Source of the DNA: Branchiostoma lanceolatum
Lineage: Eukaryota; Chordata; Leptocardii; Amphioxiformes; Branchiostomatidae
Assembly (NCBI RefSeq): GCF_035083965.1
Contig: NC_089739.1
Coordinates: 7,180,001 to 7,244,000 of the forward strand
DNA length: 64,000 nt
Direction of reading: 5' to 3'
Of the stretch, positions 43,601 through 46,600 are shown piece after piece. The notes below the pieces were generated by a model. It did no database searches, had not been told where the DNA came from, and was given only the letters and a program-made list of their open reading frames with translations. The position numbers and the translations under genes were made by a program. The first letter of the stretch is position 1. Each line of letters begins with the position of its first letter.

Positions 43601-46600
43601 TCAGCTTACCTCCTGAGCTAAGTTAGGCAACATAAACTATTGAAAGTTCAGTTTTGTTTTCTTCTTTTTTTCTGTCTTCTCACTTCTTGTATGTCTGTGT
43701 TCCAGGTACGACACGGTGAAGGGTTCTGATTGGTTAGGAGACCAGGATGCGATCCACTACATGACAGAGGAGGCACCACAAGCTGTCATTGAGGTAGAAC
43801 TTTTCATCTGTTTGTCACTGGTTATCTTTTTGAAAAAAATGAAGAAATGGGTGGCAGAGATTTTTTTTTCTGAAAGGAAATTTGACAAGTAAGGATTGTT
43901 TCCTGACTTTTTCCTCTTGAAGTTTGTCCATGGAAACTTCTAAGATTAAACTACAAAATCTTGCAGATTTGTATGTGACAAAAATAGTCATTGCCTCTTG
44001 TTTTTTTTTCCACGCTTAGTTGGAGAACATGGGCATGCCGTTCAGTCGTACGGAGGACGGTAAGATCTACCAACGAGCGTTTGGCGGGCAGAGTTACGAC
44101 TATGGGAAGGGCGGGCAGGCGCACAGGTGCTGCTGCGTCGCCGACCGCACGGGACACTCCCTTCTGCACACCCTCTACGGACAGGTAGGGGGCCTCGCTG
44201 ATGCTTCTCAAAGTGGCAATGTAGACTTGTGGTTAGGGTTGTTACCATAGAATGTAAAGTTTGTGGGTTCAAATCCTTTTGGAAAGGGCGGGCAGGCACA
44301 CAGGTGCTGCTGTGTCGCCGACCGCACAGGACACTCCCTCCTGCACACCCTGTACGGACAGGTAGGGGGCCTCACTGCACTGCTCTAAAGCATCTAGGAT
44401 AGCTTGGATTGATAAGGTGAAGAAGAGAAGGGGAGGATTGCTAGCATCTGTGATGGCTAGTTTTATAGTTTTAAAGGTGTGCTTTCCCTTGTAGTCCCTT
44501 TTGTAGGACATTTGTGATCTTCTCAATGGCTTTTTATTCCTTTTTCCATGATGTGTTGCATATAGACAGCCTTTTTCTAAACAACCAGTCAGAATTGCCC
44601 TGAGAAAGGCGACAGCCGATCACTGAAACATTGGTTGAATAAAGCACTAGGTTGTGTACAAAGAGTTTTTTTATTCAGTGACTTACGGACCTGATGAAAC
44701 TATTCACAGAAATCCTTTTCTACATAGTTTTGTTGTGTTTTCCCCTGTAGTCCCTGAGGTATGACACGGAGTATTTTGTGGAGTACTTCGCCCTTGACCT
44801 GATCATGAAGGACGGGGAGTGCATCGGAGTCGTGGCCATCAACATGGAGGACGGAACCATCCACCGCTTCCACTCTAAGAACACCGTCCTCGCGACCGGG
44901 TAGGGAGATTTTATTGTTTTTTAACCTTCCCCATGCTAAGGTAGCTGTTTGGCACCAAATTTGTATTCGTTCTGGCATTAGGCAACAGGCTAGGGATAAA
45001 GTTGAATAAGTCATACTGAAGAGCCAGAAGCCAGTTCAAATATTTAATGTATAAAGGTTTGCCAGAGATTGTTCAGCATTATGCAGATGTTTTTCTTTCA
45101 TAATGTATATGAAAAATATCCATTTTTCCATTATGATTTATAAGTGGTTAGAGCTGTTGTTAATTCTGTTAAGTTCACCATTTCTGAATTTTGATATATG
45201 AAATTGAAAGTGGTGATGGATTGATTTCTCTGTTTCCAGTGGTTACGGCCGTGCCTACTTCAGCTGCACGTCGGCGCACACGAACACGGGCGACGGTACC
45301 GCCATGATAACCCGTGCCGGCCTGGCCAATCAGGACATGGAGTTTGTGCAGTTCCATCCCACAGGTCAGTCTGGAACATGACACAGAGTATACTGTAAAG
45401 TTATCTATTTTCACTAGGACTTAATTTTGCGGTAGGAAGGGAGAGGAGATAGAAGGGAAAAGAGAGCCATAAGGTTTGTAATGTTTCCTGGCATCCCACT
45501 TTATCTTATGTTGTGCACCCAAAATATTTTCGGGGTCCCATGTTGGAGGAGGTGCCCCAAGCAGGTTAAGGAGGAAGGGCTAAGAACCTCTCTCAGAAAA
45601 TAATATACCCTGCAACTGAAACAGCAAGAAAACTTGCTGCATTATGTGCCATAGGCACTACAAGGGTCTAAATAAACGTAAAACTGAACAATGTTTGTCG
45701 TTGTGCAGGTATCTACGGCGCCGGTTGCCTGATCACCGAGGGATGTCGTGGGGAGGGCGGGTACCTCATCAACAGCGAGGGCGAGCGGTTCATGGAACGC
45801 TATGCTCCCACTGCCAAGGATCTCGCTTCCCGTGACGTGGTGTCTCGCTCCATGACTATCGAAATTAGGGAGGGCAGGTGAGAGAACAAGTGTTTGATAC
45901 CATCTGTCTTGGCTTGGTGACTGTTTCTTGTGACTTTTTCAGCAGTCAAAGCTTGTTAAGGCTATGGTCACATTTCCAAGCCGGAGCCCTGCCGGGCAGT
46001 TTGTGGGAAAGAATGGTATAAAAATATGAAAGACAACAAAACGTTTAGAACTTAATCATGAGCATAATTTGTGTAATACATGTATTAAGCTGAACGACAT
46101 GTCATGCCTGACCTTTACACATCTAGCTGCAAGCATTGTTTAAATCTTTCTTATGAGGATGCTCCTACAGTACTTGGTGGCAACAAGTTTCACTCCACGA
46201 TAGTACCGGGGAAAAACAAATTTCTGAACAAATCAATTCTGGGTTGATAACTGTGGTACATGAAGGCATGACTATGTTCTTTTCTGAGCTTGTATTAGAT
46301 ACTCAGTCATCAGTACATCCTCCAGTTTATTAGTCATTTTGTACATCTCTGATTGCCTTGTTCCATGTTCCAGAGGGTGCGGTCCAGAGAAGGACCACGT
46401 GTACCTCCAGCTGCACCATCTCCCACCAGAGCAGCTCGCAGCGCGGCTCCCCGGCATCTCGGAGACCGCCATGATCTTTGCGGGCGTCGACGTGACCCGT
46501 GAACCCATCCCTGTCCTCCCCACTGTGCACTACAACATGGGAGGTGTGCCCACCAACTACAAGGGACAGGTACATATTTCTATTGTCATAATATCCGCAC

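Follow-up and report, generated by a model that had tools for sequence, protein, structure and literature searches.

Why should an intron of SDHA carry a second, in-frame copy of the end of the preceding exon, and one that differs from it only at silent sites? The question is raised by a stretch of 64,000 nucleotides of the lancelet Branchiostoma lanceolatum (contig NC_089739.1, positions 7,180,001 to 7,244,000 of the forward strand), hereafter called the window, in which all positions below are counted. Three causes had been put forward in the original prediction: selection on a used alternative exon, copying from another functional allele, and a haplotype mis-join in the assembly. The gene around the copy was delimited by placing the SDHA exons with tblastn, using bacterial SdhA, and by setting their GT-AG limits by eye; the exon numbering is that of this analysis. 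Fifteen coding exons (E2-E16; 42404-50622, forward strand; E1 was not located) join into a frame of 649 residues whose sole stop is at its end. The 615 residues from E3 onward align with the PDB chain 1yq3_A, that of chicken SDHA, with a score of 1152 bits, residues 4-615 of the query lying opposite 10-621 of the chain. The six best PDB chains score 1146-1153 bits and the next one 1055; these are chains of vertebrates and Ascaris. Because the gene keeps a single open frame to the terminal stop and aligns with the PDB chains in this way, it looks intact as far as its sequence tells, and the copy of the E6 edge looks like an extra.

A partial duplication of the E6 edge is present in the sequence. 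E6 itself (44020-44184, forward strand) is a real exon of 55 codons that ends at the donor CAG|GTAGGG. Its last 27 codons, together with the donor, are repeated 177 bp downstream, as the original prediction had claimed, and the coordinates and junction positions given there for the copy proved correct. The gapless part of the pair (44103-44200 and 44280-44377, spacing 177) has an identity of 93%, with 7 of 98 bases different. When small indels are allowed, the repeat extends to 44213 and 44390, giving a source segment (44103-44213, forward strand) and a copy (44280-44390, forward strand), each of which comprises the 27 codons and the donor together with 29 nt of intronic sequence. Self-BLAST finds the pair at E = 6e-35. 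Across the 81 coding bases the copy differs from its source at six positions, all of them synonymous third positions just as had been reported, and the two 27-codon translations are identical. The donor is likewise identical in E6 and in the copy, with a score of 9.8 bits. As to the kind of change, of the seven differences in the gapless 98 bases, four have CpG in E6 and CpA or TpG in the copy and none is the reverse, with nine CpG in the E6 segment against five in the copy; this is the direction that a decaying copy would show, although four of four has a two-sided chance of 0.125 when calculated by hand.

The two segments are separated by a spacer of 66 nt (44214-44279, forward strand) that contains the tRNA B-box-like motif GGGTTCAAATCC. 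A tRNA-derived insertion was considered for this spacer and rejected, the B-box-like motif being its only tRNA feature: ARAGORN found no tRNA in 44214-44279, Rfam gave no match at the gathering cut-off over the window nor at E values up to 5 over 44000-44800, and the spacer aligns with two other B-box-like places over 12-13 nt only. A displaced allelic match of the spacer was sought within intron 6 and none was found. Further downstream, the sequence at about 44600-44645 in our eyes resembles a hammerhead or the end of a retroelement; this candidate was also dropped, as the sequence has no Rfam match and occurs as a single copy in the window. The motif GGGTTCAAATCC is present in each unit of another tandem pair of the window, at 34836-35148, whose units of 155 bp have 95% identity.

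How strongly the silent-only pattern speaks was weighed by likelihoods from simple substitution models, fitted over the age of the copy. If all changes had fallen on a drifting copy, six silent of six would have a probability of 0.0002-0.003 (range over the spectra tried), which bears out the suspicion that such a pattern is unlikely for a freely drifting copy. The case is weaker if some of the changes lie on E6 itself, since three silent of three on the copy would have a probability of 0.014-0.056. Within the 27 codons, 7 of 16 possible CpG decay changes are silent, and the rate of C>T at CpG in Branchiostoma floridae is described as only about twice the non-CpG rate (PMC12862219). Drift from the same allele has a likelihood of 0.0006 under the simplest model and of 0.0014-0.0041 under models that weight transitions and CpG. 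If the copy began as a different allele, the likelihood is 0.0066-0.0075, calculated with the average allelic dS of 0.070-0.075 given for the Chinese lancelet (PMC4284660); this is 12-fold that of same-allele drift in the simplest model and 4.7-, 3.6-, 2.3- and 1.8-fold when transitions and CpG are weighted. Copying from another functional allele or a mis-join of haplotypes thus fits the pattern 1.8-12 times better than same-allele drift does, but the allelic dS predicts only about 1.4 silent differences where six are seen (P for at least six: 0.04 geometric, 0.003 Poisson). A copy held under constraint reaches a likelihood of 0.16, the best of the models tried, which is 39-113 times that of drift and about 270 times in a simpler model. 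Taken together with the anatomy of the exon, these likelihoods mean that the counts alone favour constraint and that the splice anatomy does not.

That anatomy was scored with splice matrices built from SDHA's own 13 donors (E2 left out) and 15 acceptors, and because the matrices derive from the same gene, the real sites are favoured in the scoring. The six AG candidates that could serve the E6 copy as an acceptor (44230-44319) score from -6.0 to 1.6 bits against 6.1-16.7 bits for the 15 real acceptors. The best of them, at 44251 (1.6 bits), is in frame and would leave an intron of 66 nt; the other five score at most 0.8 bits. From 44251 the frame of the copy is open through its donor over 37 codons by a hand count, and this, together with the silent differences and the likelihood of 0.16, is what can be said for the copy being part of a used alternative exon under coding constraint. 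The copy holds only 27 of the 55 codons of E6, its 3' half, and so is not the equivalent of the whole exon; its inclusion would duplicate 25-37 residues in a conserved part of the flavoprotein, and read-through from the E6 donor meets a TAG at codon 22. An alternative exon is therefore disfavoured, for want of a credible acceptor, because of the read-through stop and because the copy holds so few of the codons, and we consider this reading hardly tenable.

E6 is not the only exon of SDHA whose edge has a copy nearby. When the 29 SDHA exon edges were compared with 2 kb on each side, with 40 shuffles per edge, three of them gave clear local copies that scored above all shuffles: the E6 donor with 160 (maximum of its shuffles, 29), the E3 acceptor with 66 and the E7 acceptor with 42. 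The E2 donor (32) also beats all 40 shuffles, through a short likeness to the flank of the E3 acceptor. For the E3 acceptor edge, the partial copy is about 48 bp long (42837-42884, forward strand; real edge 42998-43045) and has an intact acceptor of 8.2 bits, compared with 11.0 bits for the real one; it changes one Pro to Ser and, if used, would run into a stop after 16 codons. That of the E7 acceptor edge, about 46 bp (44465-44510, forward strand; real edge 44724-44766), has an acceptor of 9.6 bits against 8.9 bits for the real one, and its fourth codon is an in-frame TAG. Judging from these changes, the E3 and E7 copies are older and decayed, and they do not have the appearance of fragments taken from working alleles. 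A single insert consisting of the end of E6, a short intron and the start of E7 from another working allele was likewise ruled out because of the in-frame TAG in the E7 copy. Intron 2 of SDHA (42507-43021) also holds a TGGAATNNTCCATTTTT-like motif at three places: directly behind the E2 donor, within the E3-edge copy (there with one mismatch) and ahead of the real E3 acceptor.

A dense scan of SDHA in 405 tiles gave local pairs scoring at least 40 at four places. Three of these are the E6, E3 and E7 edge copies, each of which crosses a splice junction; the remaining place is TG-rich simple sequence with local repeats in intron 15 (50136-50357) and spans none. At least three junction-spanning pairs of four would have a probability of 0.014 under random placement, a value that overstates the true preference for edges because duplicates of exons, with one member of the pair conserved, stay recognisable for longer and are more readily detected. 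In the window as a whole, 50 of 533 tiles score at least 40; detailed sorting covered those in SDHA and a RUS-type gene. The RUS-type gene lies about 30 kb from SDHA, matches UVB_sens_prot at E = 3.9e-12 and has a decayed partial copy of an acceptor edge (14225-14286, reverse strand; real edge 14098-14160), about 126 nt upstream of the real one. This copy is a related phenomenon in a second gene and not part of SDHA.

Other repeats and genes were seen in the window. Tandem repeats of about 130-150 bp lie in an open frame of 2281 codons (25400-26321), with a weak Tantalus match below the cut-off. Inverted repeat pairs of 79-104 nt and 92-95% identity occur at 41210-41686, 55607-56018 and 30707-31165 and are of the kind that terminates short transposon-like elements. 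One frame with a WW domain and another with a BAG domain (32725-38950, reverse strand) presumably belong to a BAG3-type gene, and two BTG family frames (54706-56631), the first of them below the cut-off, are probably successive exons.

Since the donor of the E6 copy equals the real one and the E3 and E7 copies keep acceptors of 8.2 and 9.6 bits, the edge copies of SDHA might reduce the output of the gene as decoy (poison) splice sites, with an early stop at each use, which would come after 16, 3 and 21 codons for the E3, E7 and E6 copies, respectively. Stops in three of three decoys are nevertheless weak evidence, because introns often run into a stop soon (roughly estimated by hand, the chance is about 0.06), and the mirages on record, as lancelet duplications of exon edges are called, are reported to have no effect on regular splicing (PMC3087553, PMC3902484). 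A role as decoys is thus very improbable to us.

A mis-join of haplotypes deserves more weight. One haplotype would end at about 44279 within intron 6 and the other would start at about 44280 inside E6, producing what is called a heterotype false duplication. This single junction would account at once for the spacing, for the silent-only differences and for the fact that the intron parts cease to resemble each other after 29 nt, and the likelihoods of an allelic start (0.0066-0.0075 against 0.0006-0.004 for same-allele drift) are in its favour. There are precedents as well: in the Chinese lancelet, SNPs between alleles amount to 4.39%, with indels in addition, and misjoins as well as tandem misassemblies were corrected in its genome project (PMC4284660); the mirage in haplotype 1 of BflGb6 looked misassembled in the draft genome of B. 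floridae (PMC3087553); and false gains of exons within genes have been documented in vertebrate assemblies (PMC9516828). Against it, the window contains no N and hence no assembly gap between the copies, such as is seen in some false duplications, and the best match of the spacer in the rest of intron 6 scores only 18, a value reached by 83 of 300 shuffles. The CpG-type differences also all have their CpG on the E6 side, and repeats at the exon edges of lancelet PGBD5 were upheld on Sanger and Illumina data (PMC3902484). Moreover, the E3 and E7 copies carry a non-silent change or a stop, and for this reason duplication of edges without mis-joining seems to occur in this gene. We therefore regard a mis-join as a serious candidate that is nonetheless not the probable one. 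If it should be true, the E6 repeat would be a caution for assemblies of very polymorphic genomes.

The E6 copy probably arose when the 3' edge of the exon was duplicated locally, an event of the mirage kind known in lancelets. The clear copies at 3 of 29 edges, the junction-spanning pairs at three of four places, the edge copy in a second gene, the published cases and the weak acceptors all support this explanation; the poor fit of plain drift, the small gain from an allelic start and the occurrence of one copy per edge instead of an array are contrary to it. A segment of 27 codons, with the donor and 29 nt of intronic sequence, would have been duplicated from the 3' edge of E6 into intron 6. 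Lacking its own acceptor, the copy would probably not be recognised as an exon, and splicing would ignore it and use the upstream donor; the copy would then have no coding role and no place in the mRNA. The silent-only differences may stem from a young copy that took its sequence from another E6 allele, either at its origin or by conversion, with further silent change in E6 itself and a degree of CpG decay on the side of the copy, and this mixture is the one that we prefer to infer. A more specific version is that unequal exchange between homologues, or template switching from one to the other, produced the copy with the other parental allele as its source; mirages would then be born with a foreign exon allele. 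We think this version rather unlikely; if true, it would give the mirage mechanism a testable basis, because copies should match the exon of other haplotypes better than the adjacent exon.

How do the SDHA copies compare with those already described? No report of them was found among the papers listed for SDHA together with amphioxus, in which amphioxus does not occur, nor was there an SDHA title among those listed for mirages and edge duplications, and their absence from print is not proved by this. It has been suggested in print that mirages give rise to new introns, and the way in which mirages themselves originate was called unclear (PMC3087553). In SDHA, the duplication spans the exon-intron boundary near the original (44103-44213 and 44280-44390), the splice signal is kept (an identical donor, acceptor copies of 8.2 and 9.6 bits), and the units of about 111, 48 and 46 bp fall within the range of about 10-160 bp given for mirages (PMC3087553). 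SDHA, as a housekeeping gene in which three edge copies have decayed to different extents and one of these has silent differences only, may serve as a compact test of the origin of mirages, and also as a test case for how splicing ignores intact decoy signals.

The closest parallel is the lancelet globin BflGb9, in which the 3' boundary of exon 2 is duplicated over 157 bp (PMC3087553). As in E6 of SDHA, a donor-side edge is duplicated there beside its exon; the gene is a different one, the two E6 segments of SDHA are separated by a 66-nt spacer, and copies of acceptor edges are present in addition. The heterotype false duplications of assemblies (PMC9516828) share with E6 the doubling of a partial exon, perhaps at roughly allelic divergence, but they leave the decayed E3 and E7 copies unexplained. 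Mirage arrays have been described in BflGb6, Adh3 and other genes (PMC3087553), and PGBD5 has edge repeats of 60 and 108 bp, which were upheld by re-examined Sanger and new Illumina data with heterozygosity left open (PMC3902484). Like the copies in SDHA, the repeats of BflGb6, Adh3 and PGBD5 run across intron/exon edges with units of 10-160 bp (PMC3087553, PMC3902484). BflGb6 and PGBD5 have multi-unit arrays whose length varies between haplotypes or assemblies, whereas SDHA has single, unequally decayed copies, one per edge in the one sequence at hand. With these differences, the edge copies of SDHA fit as a further case of the published splice-edge duplication of lancelets.
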